This document shows positions 3,358 through 32,061 of a stretch of DNA of 64,000 nucleotides, piece by piece. Source of the DNA: Sphingomicrobium sp. XHP0239 (lineage in GTDB: Bacteria > Pseudomonadota > Alphaproteobacteria > Sphingomonadales > Sphingomonadaceae); the NCBI RefSeq assembly GCF_039555325.1, contig NZ_CP154608.1:1488001-1552000 (forward strand), written 5' to 3'. How positions within the stretch are numbered: position 1 is the first letter of the stretch; each line of letters begins with the position of its first letter. A program made the translations under genes and the position numbers. The notes under the pieces are model-generated. The model was not told the origin of the DNA. It ran no database searches and saw nothing but the letters and a program-made list of their open reading frames with translations.

Positions 3358-7704
<4,347 letters not shown>

Positions 7705-8017: not shown

Positions 8018-8042
8018 AAAAAGGCCTCGCCGCGAAGGCAAG
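8018..8042 (-). terminator. Weak terminator-like hairpin between the two lipoprotein genes
   Basis: On the minus strand a short GCCT/AGGC stem with an 8-base loop (8024-8039) is followed by five T. The stem is only 4 bp, so termination is uncertain; it would separate the upstream lipoprotein gene (8077-8217) from the downstream one. Confidence 0.3.
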
Positions 8043-8076
8043 CCCTTTCCGCTCCCGAACGAACGGGAAAGCGAGA

Positions 8077-8217
8077 CTAGCAGTCGCGCCCGTCCAGCAC
8101 GTCCTCGCCGCACTCGCCGGCCGAGGAAATATCTTCGCCGACACCCTTCACGGTGTTGCAGCCCGAAATCGCGAACGCACCGCCGAGAAGCGCGGCCAAC
8201 ATCATCTTGCGAAACAT
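8077..8217 (-). CDS. Entericidin-like small lipoprotein, copy 2
   Basis: A 46-residue predicted lipoprotein with a lipobox (AISGC) at Cys20 and a mature part NTVKGVGEDISSAGECGEDV ending in DGRDC. It matches the paralogue at 7797-7940 at most positions after the lipid-modified cysteine, including the two extra cysteines. ATG start at 8217 has an excellent AAAGGAG seven bases upstream. Too short to stand out as a long reading frame, but the start site, lipobox and paralogy together make it convincing. Likely anchored in the envelope; toxin or antitoxin activity is not shown by sequence. Confidence 0.82.
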   Translation of the reverse strand: MFRKMMLAALLGGAFAISGCNTVKGVGEDISSAGECGEDVLDGRDC

Positions 8218-8291
8218 CACTCATTCTCCTTTTTGATGCGCGAAGAACGATACGGTGGCGTAATTGGTTTCCGCGGCGCGATAAAATGACG

Positions 8292-9086: not shown

Positions 9087-9778
9087 CAGTTACACGGCTC
9101 GATCGAGCGAGGTTCGGGCAGGTCGCCGTCGATCCGGAAAGTCGCGAAATAGGCGTTGCCGCCTTCGAGCTGCGTCATGTCGACCCGTGACAGGCCGAGC
9201 GCTCCGAATTCGCAGTCGAGCAAGTCGGGCGGCATCCCGTGCCGCTTCACCGGACGGTCCGCGTCCACCACCACGATCAGCCCGTCGTCGTTCAGCGATT
9301 GGCGAAGGTTCCAGAGGAACTGATAGGGCTCGGTCACTTCGTGATACATGTGGACGAGGAAGATGCGGTCGAAACTCTTGCGCGGCAAGCGCGGATCGTC
9401 GCCCTCGCCCAATCCGACCAGCACGTTCGCTAGCCCCTCGCGCTGAACCCGCTGGGCTAGCGCGTCGCGCACCGAAGGCTGGATATCCTGCGCGACGACC
9501 CTTCCCGACGCTCCGACGCGCGGGCTCAGCCGGACGGTATAATATCCCTCGCCCGCACCGATGTCGGCGACGTTCATGCCTTCCTCGATGCCGGCCAGCT
9601 CCATGACCTGTTCCGCCTCGCCCATCCGGTCGCGTGCATCTTCGGTCGAAAAGCGATCCGACACGATCGAGGCGACGGGACGGTTCAGCGTCGGAAACCC
9701 GTCCTCGTCCACTCGCGGTCCGCGGTCGCAGGCGACGAGCGCGAGTAGCGGCAGCATCGCCGCGATCGCTCTAGGCAT
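9086..9778 (-). CDS. Class I SAM-dependent methyltransferase with a lipoprotein-type N-terminus
   Basis: A 230-residue protein with a Rossmann SAM-binding motif I ([15 protein letters not shown], near residues 70-84) and a typical motif following strand 4 ([12 protein letters not shown]). The substrate cannot be read from sequence. The N-terminus looks like a lipoprotein signal ([19 protein letters not shown]), which would place it in the periplasm, where SAM is not expected; related sphingomonad proteins share this oddity as far as I recall. Start chosen at the ATG at 9778, which overlaps the prfB stop (ATGCCTAG) and has GAGG nine bases upstream; 9787 is an alternative. It lies between prfB and thyA. 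Confidence 0.82.
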
Positions 9779-10904
9779 CGTCGTCATCCTCGACCTCGAC
9801 CGTCTCGCCCGTGACGCGCTGCGACAGCGCTGCGGCCATGAACTTGTCGAGATCGCCGTCGAGAACGTCGCCCGGCGCGGTCGACACGACACCGGTACGA
9901 AGATCCTTCACCTGCTGATACGGCTGGAGAACGTAGCTGCGGATCTGATGCCCCCATCCGATGTCCGTCTTGGTCGCGTTGGCCGCGTTCGCCTCTTCCT
10001 CGCGGCGCTGCAACTCGGCTTCGTACAGGCGCGCCTTCAGCTGCTTCATCGCCTCGGCCTTGTTCTTGTGCTGCGAGCGCTGCGACTGCGATGCGACGAC
10101 GATGTTGGTGGGGACGTGCGTGATCCGCACCGCGCTGTCGGTCGTATTGATATGCTGCCCGCCCGCACCCGACGCGCGATAGGTATCGATGCGCAGATCG
10201 CTTTCCACGATCTCGATGTCGATGTCGTCGTCGACCTCGGGATAGACCCAGACGCTGGAGAAACTCGTGTGGCGCCGCGCGCTGCTGTCGTAGGGACTGA
10301 TGCGCACCAGCCGATGCACGCCGCTTTCCGTCTTGGCGTAGCCATAGGCATTCTCGCCCTTGAGAAGCAGCGTCGCGGACTTGATCCCCGCCTGTTCGCC
10401 GGCATGGTGATCGACCAGTTCGACCTTCATGCCGCGCCGCTCGGCCCAGCGGGTGTACATGCGCTGGAGCATCTCGGCCCAATCCTGACTCTCGGTCCCG
10501 CCAGCGCCCGCATTGACTTCGACATAGGCATTGTTGCCGTCGGCTTCGCCTGCGAGCAGCGCCTCGACCTTGTCCTTCTCGGCCCGCTCGGCAAGTTGTC
10601 CGAGAGAGGTCAGCGCCTCGCTCACCATGCCATCGTCGCCCTCGGCCTCCGCCATCTCGATCAGTTCGAGCGTGTCGCTGAGTTCGGTTTCGATCCGCCG
10701 CGTCGCGCCGATCGCGCCGTCGAGGCGCGTGCGCTCACGCATCAGCTCCTGCGCCTTTTTGGGGTCCGCCCACAGGTCAGGGTCCTCGGCGGCGGCGTTC
10801 AGTTCGTCGAGACGCTTCTGTGCCTTGTCCCAGTCGATGAATCGACGAAGGAGTTCGGTAGCGGCGTTGATCTGGTCGGCGTGGGCTTGCGCTTCGGCGC
10901 GCAT
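9771..10904 (-). CDS. prfB: Peptide chain release factor 2
   Basis: Recognises UGA/UAA stop codons and triggers peptide release. It is 377 residues with the catalytic GGQ at residues 248-250. The codon-recognition tripeptide is SPY (residues 203-205) instead of the enterobacterial SPF, a variant I believe is common in alphaproteobacteria. The reading frame is continuous from the ATG at 10904 (AGGAA upstream), so the autoregulatory UGA frameshift near codon 26 known from E. coli is absent. It follows mrcA by 35 bases, as part of the amiC-mrcA-prfB order widely seen in alphaproteobacteria. Confidence 0.97.
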   Translation of the reverse strand: MRAEAQAHADQINAATELLRRFIDWDKAQKRLDELNAAAEDPDLWADPKKAQELMRERTRLDGAIGATRRIETELSDTLELIEMAEAEGDDGMVSEALTSLGQLAERAEKDKVEALLAGEADGNNAYVEVNAGAGGTESQDWAEMLQRMYTRWAERRGMKVELVDHHAGEQAGIKSATLLLKGENAYGYAKTESGVHRLVRISPYDSSARRHTSFSSVWVYPEVDDDIDIEIVESDLRIDTYRASGAGGQHINTTDSAVRITHVPTNIVVASQSQRSQHKNKAEAMKQLKARLYEAELQRREEEANAANATKTDIGWGHQIRSYVLQPYQQVKDLRTGVVSTAPGDVLDGDLDKFMAAALSQRVTGETVEVEDDDDA

Positions 10905-10939
10905 GGGAAATTCCTGGAATGGGGTGCTGGGATGCAGCC

Positions 10940-13519: not shown

Positions 13520-13577
13520 CGGCGACGTTCTAGCGCGCGCAGTTTGACCGCACAATGAACCGTTTGGTCGATATGGA

Positions 13578-14465
13578 TCAGGACGAACGGCGGGCAAGGT
13601 CCGCTTCGATCGCCGAGGCCAGCGCCTCGGCCAGCGGTGCGCGGCCTTCCTTGCTGCGAAGGCGAGCCTCGTCCTCGCGGTTCGAAAGATAACCAGCCTC
13701 GACCAGAACGCCGGGCACCTGCCCGAAACGAAGCACGTAGAAATTGGCGAACTGGTGCGGCGTGGGACGCAGCGGCACGCCGCTCCCCTCCCCCGCCCGC
13801 CGCAGGATGGCGCGAGCGAAGGCCGCGCTCATCGCCATCTGGTCGCGTAGTGCCAGGTCGGTCAGCAGGAATTCGACCGGCGCGTTGGCATCGGACAGCA
13901 CGCGGCCGACGCGCTCCGCCTCCGCGGCGGCAAGTTCGGCCGCCTCGGTCGTGGATGCGATGTCGGCCAGCGAATAGACGGTCACCCCCGTCGCCCCCGC
14001 ATTGGGCGCAGCATCCATATGGATCGACAGGAACAGGTCGGGCGAAAGCCGCCGCGTCAGGTCGGCGCGCTGATCGAGGCTCAACGTCGTATCGCCCTCG
14101 CGGGTCAGCGCGCTGCGAACGCGCCCGCGTTCCTCCAGAATGGCCTGGACCTCGCGCGCCAGTGCCAGCGTCAGCGCTTTCTCGCTCGCCCCGCCCACGC
14201 CCTGCGCACCCCCGTCGCGCCCACCATGTCCCGGATCGATAAGCACGAGCGGCGCATCGGGCGAACGCGCCTCGTGGATCGTTATGTCGTCGAGCGGCAC
14301 CTGCAAGTCGACGCGCAGACCCCCGCGCCGCGCTTCGCCGATGACGGCCGACGATGCTTCCGTCCGATCATCGCCCGGCGTCTCCGTCGCGGTGGACAGC
14401 CACCACAACAGCCCCGCCACGACGACGAGCGCAACGGCGAGAAGGAAAACGAAACGGCGCGGCAT
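13578..14465 (-). CDS. amiC: N-acetylmuramoyl-L-alanine amidase (Amidase_3 family)
   Basis: Zinc amidase that splits the amide bond between muramic acid and the stem peptide during cell separation. An N-terminal membrane anchor or signal (FVFLLAVALVVVAGLLWWL) is followed by the catalytic domain with LVLIDPGHGGRDGGA (first zinc His), a glutamate in the next helix, FLSIHMDA (second zinc His), and a late VLVEAGYLSN carrying the catalytic Glu. The start is not certain: ATG 14465 opens directly on the anchor but has no clear ribosome site, while ATG 14525 adds 20 polar residues. It heads the minus-strand run into mrcA and is divergent from rne. Confidence 0.93.
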   Translation of the reverse strand: MPRRFVFLLAVALVVVAGLLWWLSTATETPGDDRTEASSAVIGEARRGGLRVDLQVPLDDITIHEARSPDAPLVLIDPGHGGRDGGAQGVGGASEKALTLALAREVQAILEERGRVRSALTREGDTTLSLDQRADLTRRLSPDLFLSIHMDAAPNAGATGVTVYSLADIASTTEAAELAAAEAERVGRVLSDANAPVEFLLTDLALRDQMAMSAAFARAILRRAGEGSGVPLRPTPHQFANFYVLRFGQVPGVLVEAGYLSNREDEARLRSKEGRAPLAEALASAIEADLARRSS

Positions 14466-21413: not shown

Positions 21414-21487
21414 TGCCCCATCGTCTAATGGTAAGACTACGGACTCTGAATCCGTCAATCGTGGTTCGAATCCACGTGGGGCATCCA
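21414..21487 (+). tRNA. tRNA-Gln (CTG anticodon)
   Basis: 74 bases including an encoded CCA. The acceptor stem TGCCCCA pairs with TGGGGCA, the D arm, anticodon stem ACGGA/TCCGT and T arm (GTGGTTCGAATCCAC) fold normally, and the anticodon loop CTCTGAA gives CTG. Its 3' end is the attachment site of the integrated element that follows. Confidence 0.95.
21472..21487 (+). repeat. attL: 16-bp core repeat in tRNA-Gln
   Basis: CCACGTGGGGCATCCA, the 3' end of tRNA-Gln, recurs exactly at 31973-31988. The two copies bracket the integrase-containing element, so this copy is the left attachment site, with the intact tRNA kept on this side. Confidence 0.9.
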
Positions 21488-21518
21488 CTTCTTAGTCATT
21501 TTCCCAATACTCCCTATG

Positions 21519-21563
21519 GGTTAGCCCTCTTAGCTGTCTAACTTTTCGACGGGGTTAGACACT
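21519..21563 (+). repeat. Candidate integrase arm sites, left end
   Basis: GGTTAGCC (21519-21526) and GGTTAGACACT (21553-21563) lie just inside attL. The same two words occur on the same strand just inside attR (31929-31936 and 31877-31887). Such paired short repeats near both ends are what arm-type integrase or excisionase sites look like; binding is not shown. Confidence 0.5.
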
Positions 21564-22585
21564 TCACTCCCGTATGCCTTCTCCATCGCGCTATCAGCGC
21601 GCTCGGCATTTCCATCGTCCCCGGCGTATCGGCGATACTCGCGAACAGTCTTATGGCCGGTGATCGCCATTCCTTCTTCATCGCTACAGCCCGCCATCCT
21701 GAGGCGTCGTGCCGCGGCCTTCCGCAATCCATGCGCTGAACAGTGTGGTAGGTCGGCGGCGATGCAGGCGCGCTTCACGAGATTGTAGAAGCCCTTGGCA
21801 GTGAACGCACCGCCGCCTTTATTCTCTAGCACCAGCGTTTCGCCTAGCGGTCCCGCGTCCAGCGCCTCGCGCAATGGCTTAACGATAGGCACGTCCACGG
21901 CGTTAGCCGTCTTGCTTTGGCGAAGTCGGATGCGGCCATCGGCAATTCCCTTCCGGCTCAGGAATCGCACGTCTCCGCTTCGCTGAGCACCATACAGCAG
22001 CAAGGCGAAGGCAAGCCGTGATTTTGTGCCTACAGGATGCTTATTCTCGAACTGGGTAAGCTCAGCTTCCGTCCAGCGATGATAGCCCTCGCTATCGGTC
22101 TTTGGTGCACGAGTGTCTTTTACGGGGTCGAATGTCCCAGGCACCAGCCGCTCGCGCCGCGCTATGATAAAGAGCTGAGTGAGCAACTTCCTTAGGCGTG
22201 CAGCCGCATGTGGCTTGTGCCGCATTCCATTCATTACGCGCTGGATGCGCTGAGCGTCGAAGACTCGTATTGCATCGTCGCCGAAGCGAGCACGGAACCG
22301 CTCTAGGACGCCCCGATAGACGCCTTGCGTTGCGGGTCGAAGGTCTTGAAAGGCGGTGTCCGAATAGTAGCGCGCAATGGCATCGGAAACGCTTCCGGGC
22401 TTGATCCGACCGACACCCACTTGCAGCGTCTCTTGCTCCAGGCAGGCGGCATATTCGCGCTCGAATGCCTTCGTGCCAAAAGGTGCTTTGAAATAGTGCG
22501 CGGGATAGCCCTTGCGGCGGAAGCGATATCGAACCTTGCCGTGTCGGTCGGGAAAGCTCGTCACATAGGGCGGCTTCCTAATCAC
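21530..22585 (-). CDS. int: Tyrosine-type site-specific integrase
   Basis: Integrates and excises the element at tRNA-Gln. About 351 residues: an N-terminal arm-binding part, a SAM-like core-binding helix domain and the catalytic domain. Catalytic residues are visible: Arg in LLYGAQRSGDV, Lys in RLRQSKTANAV, His and Arg in SAHGLRKAAARRL, His in ITGHKT and the nucleophilic Tyr in EYRRYAGD. I chose the GTG at 22585 because it overlaps the upstream stop in a GTGA arrangement; TTG 22597 is also possible. The gene ends about 40 bases from attL, so its 3' end and attL-proximal repeats are intertwined. Confidence 0.93.
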   Translation of the reverse strand: MIRKPPYVTSFPDRHGKVRYRFRRKGYPAHYFKAPFGTKAFEREYAACLEQETLQVGVGRIKPGSVSDAIARYYSDTAFQDLRPATQGVYRGVLERFRARFGDDAIRVFDAQRIQRVMNGMRHKPHAAARLRKLLTQLFIIARRERLVPGTFDPVKDTRAPKTDSEGYHRWTEAELTQFENKHPVGTKSRLAFALLLYGAQRSGDVRFLSRKGIADGRIRLRQSKTANAVDVPIVKPLREALDAGPLGETLVLENKGGGAFTAKGFYNLVKRACIAADLPHCSAHGLRKAAARRLRMAGCSDEEGMAITGHKTVREYRRYAGDDGNAERADSAMEKAYGSEVSNPVEKLDS

Positions 22586-22779
22586 GACGCGGCCCAATCA
22601 TCTAGGCGATCGTCTAGGTCGTCATTGCAGGAAGCCACCCCTTCCGCTGGCCGGGTCATAGTGAAATCGAAATTGCCCAGTGCATCGACGCGACCCTTCA
22701 AGACGACGCCATGCGCGGCAACTGTCGTCGCCATGCGCTCGAGGTCGTCTTTCGAGATAAGAGCTTTGCGTCCTGCCAT
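22582..22779 (-). CDS. Small protein of unknown function between portal and integrase genes
   Basis: 65 residues, ATG at 22779, five bases after the portal stop and overlapping the integrase start by four bases. It is a mixed-charge, probably soluble protein with an acidic C-terminus (CNDDLDDRLDDWAAS). The tight packing suggests a real gene of the capsid operon. No family recognised; an excisionase or a capsid-completion factor are both conceivable, but there is no helix-turn-helix I can point to. Confidence 0.6.
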   Translation of the reverse strand: MAGRKALISKDDLERMATTVAAHGVVLKGRVDALGNFDFTMTRPAEGVASCNDDLDDRLDDWAAS

Positions 22780-22783
22780 GAGC

Positions 22784-23956
22784 CTATTCTACCGATTCGC
22801 TGTTCGGGGTTGTAGGTTCGCTCGCTCCACGCGGGTTCCAGCCTTCCACCTGGCGCACTTCGTCCGGGTCGAGCACGCCCGTCTCCAGCGCAATCTTGTG
22901 CGCGTTCCAGCGGGTTTCGGGATCTCCGCGCAAGAAGCCGGAAAGGTCCAGCTCCAGCTCGTAAGGGCCATTGGTCGGGAACAGGGACCGGGCAAACTCC
23001 GCCTCGATCTTGCGCGCCCAGGGGGCAAGGCAGAAGGTCGCGAACCAAAGGCCTGCCTGTGCGGCATTCGTGAACGTATTGTTTTCGTAGGACTGCACGA
23101 TCGGCGGGGGCACTTGGAACAGTCGGCAGATTTCGACGACGCCGAACTTGCGCGTCTCCAGCAACTCCGAATCCTCCGGGCTGATACTGATGGCTTTCCA
23201 GTCAAGCCCGCCTTCCAGCACGATCGGGCGGCCCGCATTCTTCGCGCCCATGAACCGATCGGCCAGCTTTTCACGAATGTAGTTTGCTTGCTCGGCATTC
23301 AATTGATGATCGCTTTTCAGCGCGCCCGTAGGAGCCGCGCCGTTCGCAAGAAAGCTCCGCGCCCATTCGTCTGCGGCATGGACGCCGGAAACCGTCTCAG
23401 CGGCCCTTGAAAGCCGCGACACACCGATCTTACCGTCGTTCGTCCGATCGCGAAGGTGCAGCACCTCACCTTCCAGCAGCCGCGTCGAGCGGCCCTTGCC
23501 GTCCGATACGTCATAGGCCAGCCGCCCGGTGGAAAGCTCCTGCACCGTCACCATGCTCCACGGATGATAGCGTAAGCCCGAAACCTGCCCGTTTCCGCCG
23601 CGCTCGATCTCGAGCAGGCCGTTTCCGGTCAGCAGCGCCGACGCAATCCAATGCTCGATGCCGTCGCACCATGTCATCGCAGGGTTCATCCCGCCGCGCA
23701 CAAGGCGGCTCAGCGGGTGCGCGAGATGCTCCAGCCGATTGTCGCCCTCGATGCGATAAACTCGCGCCGGGACGTAGGCGAGCGCGGTGGCGATCGCCGT
23801 CGTGCAGGCCAGCACCGTCGAAAGGTTCTCGGCTGCTCGGGCGCTGAGCGCCGCGTGATAGCCCGTCATCGGCGCGAGCGCCTGCCAGCTCGGGTCGAGC
23901 GGAGACGTGTCTGAGCGGCGTTCATAGCCCAATAGGCCCGCCATTCGATCGATCAT
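22784..23956 (-). CDS. HK97-family phage portal protein
   Basis: Forms the dodecameric ring at one capsid vertex through which DNA is packaged. About 390 residues, which is short-normal for HK97-type portals. Typical segments: LSTVLACTTAIATALAYVPARVY near the N-terminus, LLTGNGLLEIERGGNGQVSGLRYHPW, EVLHLRDRTNDGKIGVSRL, and the stem/clip region with ICRLFQVPPPIVQSYENNTFTNAAQAGLWF. Two starts are possible, 23962 and 23956; the latter gives the ATGA overlap with the protease stop that is usual in this element. It is transcribed after the capsid and protease genes, the reverse of the common HK97 order. Confidence 0.92.
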   Translation of the reverse strand: MIDRMAGLLGYERRSDTSPLDPSWQALAPMTGYHAALSARAAENLSTVLACTTAIATALAYVPARVYRIEGDNRLEHLAHPLSRLVRGGMNPAMTWCDGIEHWIASALLTGNGLLEIERGGNGQVSGLRYHPWSMVTVQELSTGRLAYDVSDGKGRSTRLLEGEVLHLRDRTNDGKIGVSRLSRAAETVSGVHAADEWARSFLANGAAPTGALKSDHQLNAEQANYIREKLADRFMGAKNAGRPIVLEGGLDWKAISISPEDSELLETRKFGVVEICRLFQVPPPIVQSYENNTFTNAAQAGLWFATFCLAPWARKIEAEFARSLFPTNGPYELELDLSGFLRGDPETRWNAHKIALETGVLDPDEVRQVEGWNPRGASEPTTPNSESVE

Positions 23957-24495
23957 GCCCATTGCCGCGCCTCCGCCAGCCGTAGGGCGCGAGTGCGATG
24001 CAGCGTCTTGTCGCCGGCCTGTCGAGCACGAAGCGCAATCTCGGTGCCCTCATAGGCAGGCCATGCCGACACAACGCTGATTTCCTTGAGGCCAATCAGG
24101 CTCAGCGTTCGCACGTCGCCGTTCCAGCTTTCGCCGCCCTCGGGCACCGTGAAACCAAAGCTCATGCCGCCAAGGTCGCCGCGCTCCGCAAGCGCCAGCA
24201 CGTCGCGGCCCGGTTGCGTGTCGGGAAGCTGGAGCGTGAAGGCGAGGCCCTTGTCATCCTCGCGTAGCTCCAGCGTGCCCGTGCGGGTGCGGCCCAGCAC
24301 CTTGCCGCTGTCATGGTCGAGCAGCGCCAGAATATCGCCAGACAAAGCGGCCCTGAAAGCACCGGGCACAATTCGCTCCCGAAACCGTCCAAGGTCCGCC
24401 TCGCTGGAAAAGGTGGCGGCATAACCCTCCAACTTGCGGCCTGAGGTCCGCAAGTCGGTGGCAAAACGCCGTTCGAGGGTTGCCGCCGCGTTCAT
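23953..24495 (-). CDS. HK97-family prohead maturation protease
   Basis: Serine protease that trims scaffold and capsid N-termini during head maturation; 180 residues, the usual size. The family signature is clear: LEGYAATFSSEADLGRFRERIVPGAF, ILALLDHDSGKVLGRTRTGTLEL with the catalytic His in the LLDHD segment, and GMSFGFTVPEGGESW with the catalytic Ser, followed by LIGLKEISVVSAWPAYEGTEIALR. ATG 24495 overlaps the stop of the 49-residue gene upstream (ATGA). Its presence with a full capsid gene implies this element builds and matures its own capsid. Confidence 0.94.
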   Translation of the reverse strand: MNAAATLERRFATDLRTSGRKLEGYAATFSSEADLGRFRERIVPGAFRAALSGDILALLDHDSGKVLGRTRTGTLELREDDKGLAFTLQLPDTQPGRDVLALAERGDLGGMSFGFTVPEGGESWNGDVRTLSLIGLKEISVVSAWPAYEGTEIALRARQAGDKTLHRTRALRLAEARQWA

Positions 24496-24641
24496 TCGGG
24501 CACCACCTCGAACTCCGCCGAAACCTTGAAGGTCACGGCATCGCCAGCCTTATTCGGTTCGGCCTTGTCCACCGTAAAGCCTGCCCGCTGGAGGTTCTTC
24601 ACGGCCCGCTCGATCTGGCGGGTGTCGATCGCCCGCGCCAT
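24492..24641 (-). CDS. 49-residue protein between capsid and protease genes
   Basis: ATG at 24641 overlaps the capsid stop (TAATG) and its TGA overlaps the protease start (ATGA), so it is embedded in a coupled translation chain. The sequence begins MARAIDTRQIERAVKNLQRAG, likely an amphipathic helix, and ends in a beta-like acidic part (VTFKVSAEFEVVPE). No family recognised. Position suggests a capsid-assembly helper or decoration factor, which is inference only. Confidence 0.65.
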   Translation of the reverse strand: MARAIDTRQIERAVKNLQRAGFTVDKAEPNKAGDAVTFKVSAEFEVVPE

Positions 24642-25852
24642 TATGCGTTCACTCCGGTAGCGGAGACGAAGCTGGCAGGACGGCGCACGCCGAAGTCCAC
24701 CGTCGCCATCGCCCGGATCAAAATGTTGCCTTTGGCGTAGCTCGTTTCGGCAAACGGATTGACCAAAATGTCGAGCTGGCTCCAGATGCCAATCAGCAAG
24801 TCGCGGAAGTCGCCATAGACCAGCCCGTTGTCGTCGCCGTCGCCGCGATCGGTCGGCACCTGATTGGTGAAATAGGCAGGCTCGTCATGGAAGGTTTCGG
24901 AAACGGGGATAGCCCGCCCGTCCGCCGTGCGAAGTTTCATCGCCAGAGCGCGAACGCCATTGGTCGAGACGAAAGCACGGCTGTCGCCAATGTTCGCCAC
25001 GTCCGCCGCCGCGATCATATCGGCAGTGATTGTGAATAGATCGGTCGAGAATGGCACGGTCGGCACGTTAGGGTCGTTCAGGATGCCAAGCGGCTCCGCT
25101 CCCGTCCCGCTGCCCGCGATCGCCGCACGGTCGATCTCCAGCGCAATGTCGCGACTCATCATCTGGCGCACCAGTCCTTCGACCTGGGGCGAGGATTGCT
25201 GGAGCAGCTGGCGTGAAAGCTCGGTGATGACGCCCACGTGATGCGGGGTCAGGGTCAAGCTGTCGAAGGTCGCGTTGCCAGTCGGCAGCGCCTCGTCCTC
25301 ATTTATCCAGCCGACGTTAGGGCTGCCCGTCTCGCGGGGAATAACCACGTCGCCAGTCAGTCCGGTCAGCGTCGTCGCGCCAAGGCGCGAGACGATCGCC
25401 GTGTTGGTCAGCGCCGATGTGAAGAGGTCAGGCCTGAAGCTCTCCGGGGCAACCGCCGCTGCCGTTGCTGTGGTCGAAGCTGCCCGCTGCTCAAAAACCT
25501 CGGTGGCGACGTAAACGCCCCTGGCAGGCCCGCCCGCACGTTCGGCAAGCATGGCTTGTTCGCGTTCGACCTTCGCCTTGTCGCGCACGGCCATGCCCGC
25601 GCCGTAGCGTAGCGTTTCGACGACGTTTTGATTGCGAAGCTCGGCAAATTCGCCGTTATCGTCGCCAGCAATGACCCGCCCCTGTTCGGTGCGCTCCGCT
25701 GCCTCGATCTTCTTGGCCCGATCCAGCTTCGCGTCGAGCGTTCGCAGCTCCGTTTCCGCCGTCTCGAATGCGGTGTTGTCATCATTTGTGTGAGCGGTCG
25801 TCATGCGGTCCATGATCGCCGCCCGCTGTTCCACCAGGTCCGCAGTTTTCAC
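24641..25852 (-). CDS. HK97-family phage major capsid protein
   Basis: Builds the icosahedral shell; 403 residues. The first 100 or so residues are a charged coiled-coil delta/scaffold domain, expected to be removed by the neighbouring protease. The HK97 fold follows: LFTSALTNTAIVSRLGATTLTG, VVIPRETGSPNVGWINEDEALP, LTPHHVGVITELSRQLLQQSSP (spine helix), AIAGSGTGAEPLGILNDP and a C-terminal NPFAETSYAKGNILIRAMATVDFGVRRPASF. The start is GTG at 25852 with AGAAGGA eight to nine bases upstream. A GC-rich hairpin lies 21 bases before the start. Confidence 0.95.
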   Translation of the reverse strand: MKTADLVEQRAAIMDRMTTAHTNDDNTAFETAETELRTLDAKLDRAKKIEAAERTEQGRVIAGDDNGEFAELRNQNVVETLRYGAGMAVRDKAKVEREQAMLAERAGGPARGVYVATEVFEQRAASTTATAAAVAPESFRPDLFTSALTNTAIVSRLGATTLTGLTGDVVIPRETGSPNVGWINEDEALPTGNATFDSLTLTPHHVGVITELSRQLLQQSSPQVEGLVRQMMSRDIALEIDRAAIAGSGTGAEPLGILNDPNVPTVPFSTDLFTITADMIAAADVANIGDSRAFVSTNGVRALAMKLRTADGRAIPVSETFHDEPAYFTNQVPTDRGDGDDNGLVYGDFRDLLIGIWSQLDILVNPFAETSYAKGNILIRAMATVDFGVRRPASFVSATGVNA

Positions 25853-25872
25853 GTTGTCATTCCTTCTAACTG

Positions 25873-25894
25873 GCGGGGGCGCTGAGGCCCCCGC
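25873..25894 (-). promoter_or_regulatory. GC-rich hairpin before the capsid gene
   Basis: GCGGGGGC and GCCCCCGC form a perfect 8-bp stem with a 6-base loop just upstream of the capsid ribosome site. No T-run follows on the minus strand, so it is more likely a 5' mRNA-stabilising or translation-control structure than a terminator. Confidence 0.45.
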
Positions 25895-26009
25895 GCTGAG
25901 CCAGCCGACAGCCTCACGGCGTTGGCATTCGGTTCGACCCGGAGCAGCGTCGTGCGTGCTCCTGTGTCAGCGTCGTGCATGACGCGCCCGGTCGAGAGGC
26001 GGGTTCGGT

Positions 26010-26483
26010 TCACTCGATTTCGTCCGAAGGGTCGCGGAACGTCGAGGTTTCTTCGTCGATGTAATGCGCCACCATGTCACGCTCTTTGCCGATGCGGAAA
26101 GTAGTGACCTTGCGAATGTCCGTGCCGCTGAGCAGCACGTCGTCCCATTCGTCCGCAGCCGGAACGTCATGCGAGAGCATCGCGTGCCCGCTGCCGATGT
26201 AGCTTTCCACGTAGCTAATGGCCCGTGCATCTGGGTGAACTTTCGCGAGGTTCCCGATAGCGCAGGCAATGCGACCAGCACCCTCCACGGTGTAGCCGTC
26301 TCCCATAAGACGCTTGAACAGCATCAACGTCAGAAGGTCGTCCGGGTCGAACAGTCGTGCTCGACCGGGAACGGTCGCTGGAGCGCACGCATACTGACCA
26401 GCCGCAATATATTCGTTCAAGCGATCGCGGTTTAGACCGACGATGCGGCACGCAATCGCAGTGGAGACTCGGGGTGTGGCCAT
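26010..26483 (-). CDS. MerR-like helix-turn-helix protein, probable element regulator
   Basis: 157 residues. The N-terminal 75 residues read as a MerR-type winged helix: VSTAIACRIVGLNRDRLNEYIAAGQY, then a basic wing (GRARLFDPDDLLTLMLFKRLM) and DGYTVEGAGRIACAI. The C-terminal half has no known effector domain. ATG 26483 has AGAGGA upstream. A cluster of inverted TCTTGG/CCAAGA motifs lies immediately upstream at 26506-26540, the expected place for a self-regulated operator. It is placed between the terminase and capsid genes. It could also be a DNA-binding small terminase, since none is otherwise seen. Confidence 0.72.
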   Translation of the reverse strand: MATPRVSTAIACRIVGLNRDRLNEYIAAGQYACAPATVPGRARLFDPDDLLTLMLFKRLMGDGYTVEGAGRIACAIGNLAKVHPDARAISYVESYIGSGHAMLSHDVPAADEWDDVLLSGTDIRKVTTFRIGKERDMVAHYIDEETSTFRDPSDEIE

Positions 26484-26505
26484 TCTTCAATCCTCTTGTT
26501 TCTTC

Positions 26506-26540
26506 CCAAGAGGTAGCACGGCTCTTGGATTTGTCCAAGA
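26506..26540. promoter_or_regulatory. Candidate operator of the MerR-like regulator
   Basis: Three half-sites alternate: CCAAGAG (26506-26512), CTCTTGG (26522-26528) and TCCAAGA (26534-26540). TCTTGGA-TTTG-TCCAAGA is a perfect 7-bp dyad. It lies 23-57 bases upstream of the regulator start codon. Operator function is inferred from symmetry and position. Confidence 0.5.
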
Positions 26541-26547
26541 ACTTTTT

Positions 26548-26910
26548 TCACGTAGCCCATGGGTCTAGTGGTCCTTTGGTCTGATCGTCGCCATATCGCG
26601 GAATAACGGTGTGATTGTAGAGGCCTCCCGTATCGGCAGCGCCGCTGTCAGAAAGTGGGCAGCCGGGGCCGGACGGCATGCGATGCATCATGGGGTCGCT
26701 TGTGTTGATGCCGTCCTCGTCATGGACGCCGGAGGGATCGTCCTCTTCCAAGTCGGGATCGAAGTTTTCGGCGTCGGGGTCGCCGTCGATCGCGTCGAGC
26801 ACGGCAATCAGCACCTCGACCGCGCTGGCGATCGTGTCGCGGTCGAAATCGACAAAAGGATTCGGGGTGTTGTGATGGGCGGATTCCGCCCTAAGGATGG
26901 CCTCAGCCAT
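26548..26910 (-). CDS. Unknown acidic protein
   Basis: About 120 residues from ATG 26910 (AGCTGCGTC upstream, weak ribosome site); longer starts are possible. The middle is strongly acidic (DGDPDAENFDPDLEEDDPSGVHDEDG) and the tail is Gly/Pro/His-rich with low predicted structure. No family recognised. It lies between the regulator and the plus-strand unknown gene; its composition suits a disordered binding protein. Confidence 0.55.
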   Translation of the reverse strand: MAEAILRAESAHHNTPNPFVDFDRDTIASAVEVLIAVLDAIDGDPDAENFDPDLEEDDPSGVHDEDGINTSDPMMHRMPSGPGCPLSDSGAADTGGLYNHTVIPRYGDDQTKGPLDPWAT

Positions 26911-27009
26911 GACGCAGCTCCTTGATAGCTCGTTGGGGTTAGAGGCGGCTCGGCGCGCCAACGCCGGGTCGTCTCGCTTTCAATAACGCACGAATGCAGG
27001 GGAAGGTCA

Positions 27010-27474
27010 ATGATCGACGCAAAGCAGCTTAAATCGCTTAAGATACAGGATTGCAACCCGGGCGACCTCGTTCTGGCCAACCAGCATACGTCTGGTGCGA
27101 CGCCTGGATTAGTGGCGAAAGACGGAGACGGACTGGGCGTGTTATGGTTTGGCAGAAACGAGGGAGACAATTATTCCTTTCGGCCCATGCAATCTGGGCA
27201 AACGGCCTTCCTAGTAGTTTCAGATTGGCGAATTAAGGTAGAGATCGACTCGTACACGTCACCCTTTAAAGGCGATTATGAGCCTGGGAGTGTGGCGATC
27301 GACGACGGCAAAATCTGCCTTATCGGCACTCGTGGTCATTCGACCTGTCTCTATTCGATCGACGGTCAACGAATGGATGATGTGAAAGCGGACTTCATGT
27401 TCTCTGAGTGGAGCGTTGTCATCGGCGAAGGGCCAGAAACTGTTCAGCTCTGGCCTTTGAAAGCCGAAGACTAG
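27010..27474 (+). CDS. Unknown soluble protein on the opposite strand of the element
   Basis: 154 residues, ATG 27010 preceded by GGGGAAGGTCA. Mostly beta-strand-like with aromatic and glycine turns (LGVLWFGRNEGDNYSFRPMQ, KICLIGTRGHSTCLYSIDG), no signal peptide. It runs against all surrounding genes and its stop overlaps the terminase stop by four bases. The AT content is visibly higher than that of its neighbours. Opposite orientation, own leader and different composition are the hallmarks of an accessory ('moron') gene. No family recognised. Confidence 0.65.
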   Translation: MIDAKQLKSLKIQDCNPGDLVLANQHTSGATPGLVAKDGDGLGVLWFGRNEGDNYSFRPMQSGQTAFLVVSDWRIKVEIDSYTSPFKGDYEPGSVAIDDGKICLIGTRGHSTCLYSIDGQRMDDVKADFMFSEWSVVIGEGPETVQLWPLKAED

Positions 27475-29063
27475 AGCACACGCACCGAGTCCAGCGTCAG
27501 ATAGTTGGTCGGCTCCTCGATTGCCGCCGCGCCAACGGCCATGATGCTCGCCACGATCCCGTCGATGCGGTCGAGGCTCTTAGCCTTCGTCGGCTTCCGG
27601 TTGCCTGCCGGGTCCGTTTCGACAATGACGTTGCCCGCCTGCCAGCGCAGCAGCGGATTGTTATTGTGCTGGAGCTTGCGGGTCAGCAACGCCGTCTCGA
27701 AGGCATCCACCGCCGCCGCATAGCTCCTGAAACCGGGCACAAAGTCCACTAGCGGCAGGTCAATGCCTTCGTCGCTCAGCAGCTTCTTGAGCCGTGCCAT
27801 CTGCCAACGGTCAAAGGCGATGGCCTCAACCTGATAGCGGGTGCGAATGTCGGCAAGCTGGAGCGCAATGGCGAGGTCGTCGCGAGCGTTGCCTACGGTC
27901 GTCTCGGCCCAGCCGTCCGCCGCCCATCGGTCGTAGGGCACCCGGTCCGTCTCGACGCGCTTGGAAATCGTGTCGCGCGGGAACCAATGCCACGCGAGCA
28001 GCTTGCCCTGGTCGGGAAAATAGAGCGCCAGCGCGGTCAGATCCTTCGTGCTCGACAGGTCCAGACCGCCAAAGCACCGCTCCCCTTCCAGCTCGGCAAT
28101 GTCGAACGGCTCCCCATTCGCATCCCAGTCCGCCTGCTCGATAAAGCGGCCCTCGGCTGCCACGCGCTGATTGAGCTGGAGCAGGCGAAAGCTCGGCTCG
28201 AATGAAGGCGAGCGCATCGCCCGCGCCGCCGCGTCGGCAAACTGCTCCTCATTCAGAAACTCGCCAAGCGCCGGGTTCGCCGCCGCCCACGCCTCGCGAT
28301 CGTCCAACGCGCAGTCCTCGAGGGCCGCGTGCAGTTGCGTGTAGATCGTCGGCACTGGTTCCGCGTCGAGCATTTCACTAAAAAAGTGGAGGTCTTCGGC
28401 GGCTTGCGTCGAAATCGTCACGCCCAACGCGGATCGCCGCTTGCCCATGCCAGTGCTCAAATTGTCCCACAGTTCGCGGCTCCGCCACTGCGCCACCTCG
28501 TCGGCAATCCAGAATGACGGCGCGAGACCATGCGCCTTCCGTGCGTCCGACGTGAGCGCACGCCAACGGGAATTGCTTTCCTCGTCGGTGATTTCCTTGT
28601 GCCAGTCTCGGATGTTTACCCGCGCCGCCATCCATGGCGTGGCCTCGATGTAGGCCCTCGTTTGATGATACAGGACACCCGCCTGCTCGCGATCGAGCGC
28701 GGCTGCATAGCACTCACCATACGGCTCCTGGCATGGCCCTAGCAGGTGCGCGAGGCTCAGGCCCGATAGCAATGCGCTCTTACCGTTGCCCCTCGCCACG
28801 CTCAGTGCCGCCAAGCGCACCCGTCGCTCCCCGTCATCGGTGCGGGGGCCATAGACGCCCCGCACGAACTGGCGCTGAAACTCCAGCAGCTCCAGCCGCT
28901 CGCCAGCCTTCAAGCCGGAGACGATCGGCAGCGTTTCGAGGAACGCCATTACCCGCTCGGCCTCGGGCATCCCATCCTTGTCCCAAGAATGCGAAACGCT
29001 CGCCGCGTCATATGCCTGAGCCGCCGCACGCAGCTTCCCCGCACCGGGGCCGCGCTTACCCAT
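27471..29063 (-). CDS. terL: Phage terminase large subunit
   Basis: DNA-packaging motor and headful/cos nuclease; 530 residues. The ATPase domain has the adapted Walker A SVARGNGKSALLSG near residues 88-99 and Walker B SFWIADEVAQW near 183-192, then the coupling motif TISTQAAED. The nuclease domain shows CFGGLDLSSTKDLTAL (first metal Asp near 335) and a late SLDRIDGIVASIMA with the final aspartate. This is the HK97-like (Terminase_1) group. The start MGKRGPGAGKL is typical of this family. No small-terminase gene is obvious upstream; an HNH nuclease gene is. Confidence 0.95.
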   Translation of the reverse strand: MGKRGPGAGKLRAAAQAYDAASVSHSWDKDGMPEAERVMAFLETLPIVSGLKAGERLELLEFQRQFVRGVYGPRTDDGERRVRLAALSVARGNGKSALLSGLSLAHLLGPCQEPYGECYAAALDREQAGVLYHQTRAYIEATPWMAARVNIRDWHKEITDEESNSRWRALTSDARKAHGLAPSFWIADEVAQWRSRELWDNLSTGMGKRRSALGVTISTQAAEDLHFFSEMLDAEPVPTIYTQLHAALEDCALDDREAWAAANPALGEFLNEEQFADAAARAMRSPSFEPSFRLLQLNQRVAAEGRFIEQADWDANGEPFDIAELEGERCFGGLDLSSTKDLTALALYFPDQGKLLAWHWFPRDTISKRVETDRVPYDRWAADGWAETTVGNARDDLAIALQLADIRTRYQVEAIAFDRWQMARLKKLLSDEGIDLPLVDFVPGFRSYAAAVDAFETALLTRKLQHNNNPLLRWQAGNVIVETDPAGNRKPTKAKSLDRIDGIVASIMAVGAAAIEEPTNYLTLDSVRVL

Positions 29064-29199
29064 GACGGTCGCTCGGTAAAACTAATTGACGAAGCGGGAC
29101 GAGGGGCGGTCCTAGTCGCGCAGCCCTGAGCGATATTTTTTCTAGCGTCGGACGTGACTGACTGTCACACGTCGTCAGTTCAAAATGCGGAGTATAGCG

Positions 29200-29601
29200 A
29201 TGAGCGTAAGATTTGCGCTGGGCGCAACGATCGCGTCGATAGTGCTCGCGGCACCAGTATGGGCTGCTGAGTGGGAATACGTCGGACGAATTAACACGTC
29301 CGAGGGCTGGGAATTTTATAGCGTCGATAAAACGTCGGTAAGGCTGATCGGAAACCAACGAACCTTTTGGACGAAGGTCGAGCTGATCACGCCTGATCGT
29401 GATGAAAGCTATACTGCTCGCAAATCGTTCTGGCGCCTCGATTGCAGGCAATGGACGATGGCCGCCGTCTCCGAGGTGCGTTATGACGCCGCCGGAAATG
29501 TAGTCGCCAGCGTCACCGATGAAATTTCGCTGCGTCCGATAGTCCCCGAAACGATCGGAGAAGCTGTCGCAGAATATGCGTGCAAAGCGCCTCATCGTTG
29601 A
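29200..29601 (+). CDS. Secreted Adhesin_E-like protein, accessory gene
   Basis: 133 residues with a signal peptide (FALGATIASIVLAAPVWAAE) and a mature part WEYVGRINTSEGWEFYSVDKTSVRLIGNQRTFWTKVEL, which follows the pattern of the surface-adhesin E-like family (W...G....YYVD..S....G...VW). Start chosen at ATG 29200 because GGAG lies nine bases before it; ATG 29185 is the alternative. It is opposite to the packaging genes and wedged between terL and the HNH gene. An exported protein in a capsid satellite is likely cargo that alters the host envelope, for example to affect phage adsorption; that role is inference. Confidence 0.7.
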   Translation: MSVRFALGATIASIVLAAPVWAAEWEYVGRINTSEGWEFYSVDKTSVRLIGNQRTFWTKVELITPDRDESYTARKSFWRLDCRQWTMAAVSEVRYDAAGNVVASVTDEISLRPIVPETIGEAVAEYACKAPHR

Positions 29602-29912
29602 CCACCCCACGGGTGCCGCTCGTCAAGCGGGTTGCCGTCCGCATCGCATCCACGCCGGGGCTTGTCTGAGCGCACCGCACCAGCTTCTGCTCCCCGTGCC
29701 GTCTTTGCCGAATGACAGGACGGACATAAACAGCGCAGGCCATCGAGCGCCGGGAAGGCTGGCCCGCCGTCGCTGATGGCATGGACATGATCGACGTGCT
29801 TGGCAGGCCGCATTATCGAGATTGCCTTGCAGTCCTCGCATAGCGGCTGCTGAGACAGCTTCAGCTTGCGGAGCCGCTGCCATTGCGCGGTGTTGTAGGG
29901 CCAATCAGCCAT
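29592..29912 (-). CDS. HNH endonuclease next to the terminase
   Basis: 106 residues. The fold is a zinc-held HNH: LCEDCKA (first Cys pair), HVDHVHAISDGGPAF (catalytic His-Asp-His), and LRCLCPSCHSAKTARG (second Cys pair plus the final N/H region). HNH proteins beside TerL are part of the packaging machinery of many HK97-like and cos phages, where they help terminase cut. It overlaps the stop of the 70-residue gene upstream by eight bases. Confidence 0.92.
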   Translation of the reverse strand: MADWPYNTAQWQRLRKLKLSQQPLCEDCKAISIMRPAKHVDHVHAISDGGPAFPALDGLRCLCPSCHSAKTARGAEAGAVRSDKPRRGCDADGNPLDERHPWGGQR

Positions 29913-30117
29913 GCTCCGGCCCCGCCACGGCGATGATGTGAAGGCCCTTGAGCGTGCCCGCCAGCTTTACGGCTCGCGGACGCGGAACGCCCTTGGCCCT
30001 CAGCAGCCTCTCGATCTCGCGGACCTGTAGCGGACGGCTGATTGCATCGAGCACGCGCAACGCCGCGGCCTTCTCGGCAGGCGTCATCGCCGCCACCATT
30101 GTATGAAGATCAATCAT
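29905..30117 (-). CDS. Small helical protein of unknown function
   Basis: About 70 residues from ATG 30117, which overlaps the end of the RepA-like gene. Ala/Leu-rich with a C-terminal part (LQVREIERLLRAKGVPRPRAVKLAGTLKG) that could be a helix-turn-helix. No family recognised. Its place directly before HNH and terL is where a small terminase would be expected, which is a testable guess. Confidence 0.55.
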   Translation of the reverse strand: MIDLHTMVAAMTPAEKAAALRVLDAISRPLQVREIERLLRAKGVPRPRAVKLAGTLKGLHIIAVAGPEHG

Positions 30118-31450
30118 GGCCTGGCCCGCTTTCATCGAGAGTGGCGGGGGCACTCAAGGCCCCGCCCTCTATATCTTTAGATATAGGGGTGTGTGTGAGC
30201 GCACTCGGCGCAAGAGGCTCAGCGCGGTCAGCGCAGGGTGTCAGCGCGGGGTCAGCGCAAAGGTCAGCGCACTTTATCAGCAAGCCCTCGCGGTCCTTTC
30301 TGCCGACGTTGCAAACCACTCCCCGCTCGATCGCGCCGATGCGGAAGAGGCGGTCCATCGCTGCTGCCAGTCGCTTCTTTCCGATGCCTTTCGCCTCGGG
30401 CATTTCGGCAAATACGGCCGGAGCAAAAGTGCGGCTGTATTCGCTGTCTGAGACAGGCCGCTGCTGGCGATTGCGAAGCTCAAGGCAACGAATGAATGCC
30501 GCATTATCCGCGCTCGCCTTCACCGTCTCGGCAAGCTGCTCCTGAAAGCTTTCCGGCAGGTCAACGTCGAGCACGTAGGCCCATTCATGCCAGCGGAAGC
30601 GGGCGGCTTCTCCGCCCTTCCCATAATTCAACTTGGGATTGCTGAGCACGCGAGCGTCCCGATCGAGCACCACGCCGTTCTCATCATGCACCAGCTCCAG
30701 GGTCGCTTGCGAGCGCACTGCATTGAGCCAAGCCGTCGAGCCAGAATAGCTATCGCCGCTCTTGTTCGGGTGCCCGATCAGGACGATCGCCGCGCCCGTC
30801 TCGCCTGCCAACCGATTGAGCAGGTTCACGAACTGCGTCACGTCGCCACGGTCGTTCTCGTTGCCGTCGAACAGGTGTGCGACGTTATCGAGGAAAACCA
30901 GCTTGGCGTCGGTTGCCCGCATCGTCCGGGCAAGGTCGTTGTAGAGCGCGGTCGTCACCCGACGCTCGCCAATGTCGTGAGCGGCAGGCTCGACACGCAC
31001 GCCGATGACATTATCCAGCTCGCCTCGACGGCTCACAAGATGCAGCCGATCGGCAAGGCTCGCCATATCCACGCCCAGCGCCTCGCAGATGTGCTGCTGG
31101 CGCCAGTGAAGCTGCTCGGCGTCGTCTTCGCAGGTGACGTAGAGGGAAGCAGTCGGCTGAACGCCCAATCCAAGACAGGGGATGCCCGCCGCCGCGCAGG
31201 TCGCGAGCTGTTGCGCGAGCAGGCTCTTGCCCGACGCACCCGCTCCCGTGAACAATGTCACTTCGCCAGCCGGAACTACGCCCTCGACCGCAAAAGCCTT
31301 GGGCACGGCCCGCACCGCGCTCAGGGCGCGTAGGTCGAGCGTTGCTAGTGAGCCTTGTGCAGCTTTGCGCGGGGTGCCGTTTGGATTGTCGTTGTCGATC
31401 GCGAGACGGGCAATCGCGGCCCGTTCTTCGGAAGTGGGGCCAAGGTTCAT
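30110..31450 (-). CDS. RepA-like AAA/RecA-fold replication ATPase
   Basis: 446-448 residues. Walker A is FTGAGASGKSLL (near residues 70-80) and Walker B KLVFLDNVAHLFDG (near 185-197), with EDDAEQLHWRQQ between them and GHPNKSGDSYSGSTAW after. This pattern is that of RSF1010 RepA-like hexameric helicases (AAA_25), common as the replication protein of plasmids and phage satellites. The C-terminal 50 residues are low-complexity Cys/Ala/Asp repeats because the DNA there is a series of TCAGCGC repeats. ATG 31450 overlaps the upstream stop (ATGA); 31456 is possible too. Confidence 0.85.
   Translation of the reverse strand: MNLGPTSEERAAIARLAIDNDNPNGTPRKAAQGSLATLDLRALSAVRAVPKAFAVEGVVPAGEVTLFTGAGASGKSLLAQQLATCAAAGIPCLGLGVQPTASLYVTCEDDAEQLHWRQQHICEALGVDMASLADRLHLVSRRGELDNVIGVRVEPAAHDIGERRVTTALYNDLARTMRATDAKLVFLDNVAHLFDGNENDRGDVTQFVNLLNRLAGETGAAIVLIGHPNKSGDSYSGSTAWLNAVRSQATLELVHDENGVVLDRDARVLSNPKLNYGKGGEAARFRWHEWAYVLDVDLPESFQEQLAETVKASADNAAFIRCLELRNRQQRPVSDSEYSRTFAPAVFAEMPEAKGIGKKRLAAAMDRLFRIGAIERGVVCNVGRKDREGLLIKCADLCADPALTPCADRAEPLAPSALTHTPISKDIEGGALSAPATLDESGPGHD
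30166..30189. repeat. AT-rich inverted repeat next to iterons
   Basis: CTATATCT (30169-30176) and AGATATAG (30179-30186) form a perfect dyad around TT, flanked by CCC and GGG. It is the most AT-rich spot in this GC-rich gene and directly adjoins the TCAGCGC repeats, as in the melting region of an origin. Confidence 0.5.
30196..30270 (+). repeat. Iteron-like TCAGCGC repeats, candidate replication origin
   Basis: TCAGCGC occurs exactly at 30219, 30228, 30241, 30252 and 30264, with a TGAGCGC variant at 30196; the fuller consensus is GGTCAGCGCA. Spacings are 9-13 bases, close to one helical turn. They fall in the 3' end of the RepA-like gene beside an AT-rich dyad. Together this is a plausible replicon origin recognised by a protein of the element. 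Confidence 0.6.
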
Positions 31451-31758
31451 TGCCATGCTCCTTCCGCGTCCGTTTGTTCGGCTTGCACCGCCGTCAGCAT
31501 GAGGCGGTTGCAGAGCTTCACGATGTTATCGAGCACGGCTAGCGTGGTCGGCGCGTAGATGGTCCCGGTGGCATAATCTGAGGCCATCCAGGCGAGCGTC
31601 CGCGCTTGATCGCTTTTCGTGCTGGCGATCATCGAGGCCGCGCAATTCTTGAACGTGCGGAGCTTCGCCCGGAGCGCATATTCCTCGGGGCCAACCTCGG
31701 CAGACATGAAGTGCCGAATGTCGTCGAGGGGCTTGGCGATCGGGGTGTGAGCGGTCAT
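31447..31758 (-). CDS. Unknown protein upstream of the RepA-like gene
   Basis: 103 residues from ATG 31758, whose first bases overlap the upstream stop. Mostly helical (EEYALRAKLRTFKNCAASMIAS, TTLAVLDNIVKLCNRLMLTAVQ), no signal or membrane segment. Translationally coupled on both sides, so it belongs to the replication operon. No family recognised. Confidence 0.6.
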   Translation of the reverse strand: MTAHTPIAKPLDDIRHFMSAEVGPEEYALRAKLRTFKNCAASMIASTKSDQARTLAWMASDYATGTIYAPTTLAVLDNIVKLCNRLMLTAVQAEQTDAEGAWQ

Positions 31759-31970
31759 TGCACGCCCTCCCCGTTCCATGTAAGATGCACCTGCTTTTCC
31801 GCCGTCATGGAATTGCGCGCCCTCGCCTCGGTGCCAGCCGACGCGGGGGCTTTTCGTTGGTCGGGTGGGTCGAAAAGGTTAGACACTCGAAAACTGACGC
31901 CCTTGGCAAATCTGGGCGACAGCGTTCCGGTTAGCCTTTTCAAGTGCTTAGTATCATTTGGTTTGTTCAT
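31755..31970 (-). CDS. Small basic protein starting at the right end of the element
   Basis: 71 residues if the ATG at 31970 is used; this codon lies only two bases inside attR. An ATG at 32024 would begin outside the element. The sequence is basic and low in structure (MNKPNDTKHLKRLTGTLSP). It contains both right-end candidate arm sites within its DNA. The 4-base overlap with the next gene supports translation, but no ribosome site is visible, so confidence is modest. Confidence 0.4.
   Translation of the reverse strand: MNKPNDTKHLKRLTGTLSPRFAKGVSFRVSNLFDPPDQRKAPASAGTEARARNSMTAEKQVHLTWNGEGVQ
31877..31936 (+). repeat. Candidate integrase arm sites, right end
   Basis: GGTTAGACACT (31877-31887) and GGTTAGCC (31929-31936), both exact copies of words found just inside attL (21553 and 21519). 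They lie 36-96 bases inside attR. Confidence 0.5.
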
Positions 31971-31972
31971 GC

Positions 31973-31988
31973 CCACGTGGGGCATCCA
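31973..31988 (+). repeat. attR: 16-bp core repeat
   Basis: CCACGTGGGGCATCCA, identical to the tRNA-Gln 3' end at 21472-21487. Flanking bases differ, so the duplicated core is 16 bp. Beyond it the backbone resumes with the TonB receptor gene. Confidence 0.9.
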
Positions 31989-32061
31989 GCGTTTTTCCTC
32001 ATTCAGCCAGCCCTGCCGCTTCACGATGAGCTTGCGGAAGCGACAGGGGCGGACAGCATCC

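Follow-up and report, generated by a model that had tools for sequence, protein, structure and literature searches.

We analysed a 64-kb stretch of the chromosome of Sphingomicrobium sp. XHP0239 (the whole of which we call the window) and found a 10.5-kb element, intact at a tRNA-Gln gene (positions 21472..31988), that encodes an integrase, packaging proteins and the parts of a phage head. This element is very probably a capsid-forming satellite, which would build and fill a small head of its own and obtain neck, tail and lysis functions from a helper phage. Judged from its genes, it is a member of a large, little-described family of similar elements. A preliminary description of the window had proposed a satellite resembling the capsid-forming phage-inducible chromosomal islands (cf-PICIs). 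Kinship with a compact family of such elements was borne out; the strict cf-PICI label was not, as neither head–tail connectors nor a terminase small subunit (TerS) could be recognised. That is, the element, intact and conserved by all sequence tests applied, appears to work like a cf-PICI, but we do not claim strict membership because connectors were searched for and not found.

The element and its integration site

Two exact copies of a 16-bp attachment (att) repeat delimit the element. The first (21472..21487) forms the last 16 bases of the tRNA-Gln(ctg) gene detected by ARAGORN (21414..21487, plus strand), which is the integration target and is left intact, and the distal one (31973..31988) is an exact copy of this tRNA end. 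Searched on both strands of the window, the 16-mer occurs at these two sites only, confirming that the repeats reported in the preliminary description are perfect. The GC content of the element is 61.7% versus 63.3% for the remaining window.

A stretch comprising ppx and tRNA-Gln had a strong match in 60 of the 61 genus genomes (only a trivial match in G336), and tRNA-Gln adjoins ppx in the six relatives examined. The bases 3' of the intact tRNA-Gln in L200, L202 and L203 read GCGCTTTTCC, those 3' of the window's distal repeat GCGTTTTTCC. Nine of the ten bases after the distal repeat agree with the empty-site flank in three of the six relatives; the other three differ. Because the flank agrees with that of relatives whose tRNA-Gln is intact, we regard the distal repeat as the outer limit of a segment inserted into a once-empty site. 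With a longer flank taken into account, the TonB/PepSY genes outside attR also lie near tRNA-Gln in G315, but in inverted order. This longer match was rejected, and the evidence for an empty site is therefore the ten bases adjoining the repeat in three of six relatives. Within the genus, a portal match (E<=1e-40) was obtained in 3 of 61 genomes: that of the element's own host, one with 66% and one with 33% identity. In four relatives (G342, G341, G340 and G334), a 49-bp piece of tRNA-Gln is repeated some kb from the intact gene, which suggests other islands at the same site.

The window proteins, called with a purpose-written gene caller, were searched with Pfam, PHROG and NCBIfam. On the minus strand, the genes run from a 110-aa open reading frame (ORF) through an AAA_25 ATPase, an 82-aa ORF, an HNH endonuclease, the terminase large subunit (TerL), a 137-aa ORF and a MerR-like helix-turn-helix (HTH) protein to capsid, protease, portal, a 65-aa ORF and the integrase. 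The latter is a tyrosine recombinase (21530..22597; Phage_integrase PF00589, 2.7e-12; phrog_1, 3.8e-33). The head block comprises an HK97-type portal (22784..23962; Phage_portal PF04860, 2.2e-91; TIGR01537), an S78 head-maturation protease (23953..24495; Peptidase_S78 PF04586, 9.6e-40; TIGR01543) and an HK97-fold major capsid protein (24641..25852; Phage_capsid PF05065, 2.3e-35; TIGR01554). Packaging genes are TerL (27471..29063; PF03354 and PF20441, nuclease 3.8e-35, ATPase 1.4e-16; phrog_9, 3.5e-118) and, beside it, a packaging-type HNH endonuclease (29592..29912; PF01844, 5.9e-08; phrog_2323, 4.4e-23). Every gene assigned to a family is one uninterrupted open frame, in agreement with the intact set of integrase, HNH, TerL, capsid, protease and portal listed previously. 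The protein formerly called a RepA-like ATPase is indeed an ATPase, not of a RepA-like type but of the AAA_25 family resembling phage primase/helicase ATPases, and is presumed to be a replication protein (30110..31456; PF13481, 6.5e-34; phrog_906, 1.2e-27). Among the 15 ORFs of the element, no tail or lysis family was found above cut-off in Pfam or PHROG, NCBIfam having been run as well; the tail-less, lysis-less content described earlier was thus upheld.

In HK97-type phages the portal nucleates the head, the protease matures it, and TerL together with HNH cuts concatemers at cos. By analogy, the integrase would insert the element at the 3' end of tRNA-Gln and excise it when a helper is present, and the AAA_25 ATPase would support its replication. 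HNH and TerL would then cut and pump one unit of ~10.5 kb into a small head assembled from the element's own portal, capsid and protease. The filled head would dock on the adaptor, closure and tail supplied by a helper siphophage and exit at helper lysis; docking on helper parts would be obligatory because genes for neck, tail and lysis could not be recognised. The sequences show the gene content, the boundaries, the integration, the constancy of size and gene order across the family, purifying selection and the swapping of modules between members. We infer the small capsid, unit-length packaging, induction, the borrowing of neck and tail, and who the helper might be.

Relatives of the element

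A portal-profile scan provided 70 GTDB loci and the best 80 of 165 IMG/VR loci, that is, 151 sources including the window. Sphingomonadales contributed 29 of the 70 GTDB loci; the others include further Alphaproteobacteria, Desulfovibrio and its kin, a Salinisphaera and a Phycisphaerales record. All but one of the IMG/VR loci (79 of 80) lie on contigs of <=15.1 kb, the remaining one on 22.4 kb. A tRNA gene is found just outside the portal side in 67 of the 151 sources. For bounding, the 3' end of the adjoining tRNA was sought as an upstream repeat, and loci without a neighbouring tRNA stay unbounded. Such a repeat was present in 51 of the 67, of which 7 self-matches of truncated loci and 1 short viral fragment were discarded; the 16 tRNA-adjoining loci without a repeat have <8 kb upstream of the portal. 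This left 43 bounded elements (the window's, 33 from GTDB and 9 from IMG/VR), 42 of them distinct, as L137 duplicates L050. The search for relatives proposed in the preliminary description accordingly yielded 42 distinct elements with a shared core, occupying 15 tRNA isotypes and flanked by repeats of 14-57 bp. Their median size is 10,489 bp (range 9,018-11,350, standard deviation 517), and this narrow spread agrees with one unit genome packed into a fixed small head.

Gene content was counted with hidden Markov models (HMMs) built from the family set and run on the 42 bounded elements. Capsid, protease and integrase were matched in all 42, as was the portal, which was the query by choice; HNH followed with 36, TerL with 35 and the AAA ATPase with 28. 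Of the connectors, the adaptor (Ad1, phrog_40) was matched in 14 elements and the closure (Hc1, phrog_25) in 5. Neither was matched in 28 of the 42, the window element included, a number that is an upper bound since the HMMs may miss divergent connectors; one of these 28 (L081) encodes a 223-aa protein that matches phrog_442, a head-tail adaptor (3.7e-09). Every locus that has capsid, protease and portal carries them in this order (138 of 138), and TerL lies upstream in 104 of 106. Five tailed phages examined have portal first, followed by protease and the next head gene, which is annotated as capsid in three of them; in a 30-kb prophage resident in the same chromosome as the element, capsid precedes portal.

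The core genes are under purifying selection. Calculated from the closest pairs for each gene (no more than 40, and 6 in the case of the ATPase), all of them pairs of relatives other than the window, median ratios of non-synonymous to synonymous substitution rates (dN/dS) were 0.158 for capsid, 0.136 for protease, 0.093 for portal, 0.074 for TerL, 0.187 for HNH, 0.066 for integrase and 0.102 for the ATPase. Compared with its nearest relatives (dS >=0.9), the window element gave ratios of non-synonymous to synonymous differences (pN/pS) of 0.15-0.33 for head, packaging and integrase genes and 0.41-0.49 for the ATPase. TerL falls into two types by identity to that of the window, <=60% in 57 and >=65% in 48 of 105 loci with none between. 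The type is not predicted by how similar the capsids are: the capsid medians are 48 and 51%, and a relative whose capsid is 81-84% identical can have a TerL of 48% identity. This uncoupling points to modules exchanged within a live pool. One relative, the 10,148-bp IMG/VR contig L186, has a 118-bp terminal repeat and closes as a 10,030-bp circle, consistent with an excised or replicating form.

We compared the family with 50,697 phage records. All matches were <60% identical (58 records for capsid, 1,588 for TerL and 1,549 for portal), and the best identities among the matches listed (30, 15 and 15, respectively) were 35.6%, 37.0% and 35.7%; family members share up to 88% identity in TerL. Of 75 portals placed in a tree, the 68 that belong to the family fall on one side of a branch with an SH-aLRT (approximate likelihood-ratio test) support of 93, or 99 without a Bradyrhizobium row. 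The tree was built quickly and has very long outgroup branches; its rows were picked by portal similarity, excluding portals <250 aa and all IMG/VR loci except four. Against structures, the capsid profile matched PDB 8gta_A (3.1e-37), which we take to be a roseophage head, and the capsid of the alphaproteobacterial gene transfer agent RcGTA (4.8e-06); the portal profile matched 9lbn (9.6e-57) and RcGTA (1.2e-32).

Known satellites, tail donors and alternative explanations

Published systems are compared here as far as the available parts of the cited papers describe them. Like cf-PICIs, the window element combines integrase, capsid, protease, portal, HNH and TerL on a single compact island; both have TerL with HNH, an integrase of their own at a chromosomal att site, and no tail or lysis genes. 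Unlike cf-PICIs, it has no recognisable TerS or head-tail connectors, and it measures ~10.5 kb versus an average of 14 kb (PMC10803314). Helper tails were shown for cf-PICIs and are predicted for the window element (PMC10690885, PMC10803314, PMC12409344). The hosts differ as well, the present family occurring mainly in Alphaproteobacteria and cf-PICIs primarily in Enterobacteriaceae, Pasteurella, Morganellaceae and Firmicutes groups (PMC10803314). Kinship with cf-PICIs was judged by description. The Vibrio satellite plasmid cf-PISP also has capsid, portal, protease, HNH and terminase without tail genes, but is episomal, carries plasmid genes, measures 15.8 kb and encodes a head-tail adapter and closure, whereas the window element is integrated at a tRNA gene (PMC13230959). 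The Streptomyces satellites MulchRoom and MiniFlayer similarly carry their own capsid and packaging genes and rely on helpers; they differ as satellites of virulent phages with terminal repeats, low GC, scaffold, TerS and adapter (PMC10690885).

Capsid-forming satellites have been described from Enterobacteriaceae, Vibrio, Pasteurella and Firmicutes. Sphingomonads are not named in the available parts of the cf-PICI literature (PMC10803314, PMC10690885, PMC13230959, PMC13345588, PMC12409344, PMC12987554, PMC12846349), nor do those of PMC8682789, PMC12946183 and PMC12486242 describe such sphingomonad elements. None appeared among the titles and abstract beginnings of the matches listed, a coverage outside which most subscription papers fall. 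If the satellite interpretation is true, so broad a family would mean that genes commonly move by tail-borrowing in environmental Alphaproteobacteria and would account for many ~10-kb 'defective prophages'.

Several points weigh against a helper-dependent satellite. The element is known here from its sequence; its particle, circular form and transfer are predicted from it, and helper dependence is deduced from missing genes. No connector was found in it with Pfam or PHROG, and the adaptor and closure HMMs of relatives had no match in six frames; nor was a separate TerS gene recognised with Pfam and PHROG. Since flanks of 10 kb were used, the size statistic is blind to elements >~12.5 kb. A tape measure gene is present at some related loci, so that the family is not wholly free of tail genes. 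A capsid search over 298 genomes of the host's family matched 15 of them. Of the 15 places besides the window's, 12 have capsid-protease-portal, which speaks for the satellite interpretation, one (L030) is cut at a contig end and 2 lack the block. L033 carries a 36% identical capsid within a prophage in which a 1,067-aa protein has matches to phage tape measures; remote relatives are therefore tailed. L034 has a capsid, no tblastn match to portal or TerL, and a tape measure at 6768-9299.

Tape measure genes without a tblastn match to TerL were found in L058 (Rhizobium sp. Root274, with L153 as a copy; 5270-7288), L134 (60% identical to that of L058) and L088 (the same locus as L031, where it spans 12527-14305). 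In L136, an 807-aa ORF directly after portal (4508-6928) has a partial tape measure match of 37%, and a 413-aa ORF at the contig end can be read as resembling an integrase. Two checks for tails around unbounded loci carry little weight. Tail probes from the resident prophage and the resident gene transfer agent (GTA) matched L088 only among the 151 sources, and also missed the tailed prophage L033. PF10145 matched 9 of 25 genomes or records and missed the tape measures of L058, L134 and L088, which were found by PHROG or tblastn; of its 10 places, 7 are on contigs that differ in length from that of the family locus, 2 past the locus contig end and one far from the L058 element. Relatives with a tape measure may reset the length of borrowed tails. 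A likeness exists to the Vibrio cholerae satellite PLE, which encodes its own tape measure, as a few relatives of the window element do; PLE virions carry phage capsid proteins, however, and the window element lacks a tape measure gene (PMC12987554). PLE satellites assemble chimeric tails with their own tape measure, and putative tmp genes occur in some cf-PICIs (PMC12987554); because of these reports, an own tape measure in satellites follows a known trend.

To a wider interpretation we give somewhat less than an even chance: the family may be a separate, Alphaproteobacteria-centred lineage with a capsid-protease-portal block inverted with respect to tailed phages and a ~10.5-kb unit genome, in which the division of labour with the helper slides. 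Some members would bring adaptor and closure; many, the window element included, would dock a bare portal on the helper's neck; and a few, without TerL and with their own tape measure, would borrow the packaging motor and determine how long the borrowed tail becomes. This gradation in connector content would be natural material for studying the protein contacts that let a foreign head accept a phage tail.

The helper check proposed earlier gave a candidate: the same chromosome carries an intact-looking 30-kb siphovirus prophage (G000:C1:1000307-1030493; L187, L035, L188) with 51-bp att repeats at tRNA-Met. It encodes TerS, adaptor, closure, neck, major tail, tape measure and endolysin, and is a plausible tail donor and helper. 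A GTA-like head-tail cluster is also present (G000:C1:362000-391900; L036, L189). It is very unlikely that this resident GTA, instead of a phage, donates the tails to an element of the same type: the family adaptor HMM does match a protein there (1.4e-07), but adaptor and closure HMMs alike give stronger matches in the resident prophage (5.3e-11 for the adaptor; 2.7e-10 versus 1.3e-03 for the closure), and GTAs are expressed in few cells.

We consider it very unlikely that the element is itself a domesticated GTA-like device that packs host DNA rather than its own. Capsid and portal are homologous to those in the heads of RcGTA (6tba) and a siphophage (8gta), as the profile matches show, and a small head is suspected. 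GTAs and siphophages encode their own tails. Against such a device, GTAs have no integrase or att sites, both of which the window element has. Patchy occurrence (the 3 of 61 genus genomes), module exchange and the many target tRNAs fit a selfish mobile element, and the genome has its separate GTA-like cluster. No more probable is an autonomous element, tailless or plasmid-like, that would use its head genes for tail-free release. The silence of the connector HMMs in 28 of 42 elements would suit it, but other relatives keep siphophage-type adaptor and closure, and a few have tape-measure proteins, all of which make sense only with tails. Extremely unlikely, finally, is a deletion remnant, a tailed tRNA-Gln prophage stripped of tail and lysis genes and decaying: tail genes are absent and HK97-type genes common in prophages, but size and core are common to all 42 distinct elements, spread over 15 tRNA types, which refutes an independent local deletion, the gene order differs from that of the tailed phages examined, the genes are open and under purifying selection, and phage matches of portal, capsid and TerL stay below the identity reached among family members. 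The preliminary description had named related full-length tailed prophages at the same site as the sign of a remnant; a full-length tailed prophage with the same head block was not found, the 108 unbounded loci of the 151 not being fully annotated.

Remaining open reading frames

The MerR-like HTH protein between TerL and capsid (26010..26483, minus strand; MerR_1 PF13411, 3.1e-06) was matched in 6 of the 42 elements and is a candidate late regulator or substitute TerS; in Streptococcus phage Javan105 a MerR-type gene likewise lies between TerL and head genes. A PDB profile search with this and the 82-aa protein returned nothing useful, BURRH matches of ~1e-6 spanning 22 residues. The window HNH protein matches phrog_4581, named terminase small subunit, over its HNH part (5.7e-07). 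In L070 (3411-4238) and L050 (4241-5098) the HNH protein is enlarged to 275-285 aa; that of L070 matches phrog_4581 over residues 5-263 (4.6e-40) and is perhaps an HNH-TerS fusion.

Two cargo-like ORFs on the plus strand flank TerL: a 154-aa ORF without a family match (27010..27474), possibly cargo, and an Adhesin_E-family ORF between HNH and TerL (29185..29601; PF16747, 1.1e-12), likely cargo, which had no tblastn match in the relatives searched. Defence cargo was rejected, as PADLOC yielded only weak HNH and AAA matches. In an alignment of non-core family proteins (the first 150 of 187 selected), phrog_12296, named tail fibre, matched 2 of the 150. The other small ORFs are on the minus strand. 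An acidic 137-aa ORF of no assigned function (26548..26961) was matched in 17 of the 42 elements, and the 82-aa ORF between the replication ATPase and HNH (29905..30153) in 9; a tail assembly chaperone was rejected for the latter (Phage_TAC_6, E 0.021, under the Pfam cut-off). The 65-aa ORF adjoining the integrase (22582..22779; 19 of 42) possibly has a role in excision or regulation and is probably not a connector, being also present in elements that have adaptor and closure. The cluster of the 110-aa ORF (31447..31779) covers 5 elements. An 89-aa ORF (31755..32024) has its listed start outside attR, but we read an internal ATG just within attR as the likelier start; several relatives have a similar ORF at this edge.

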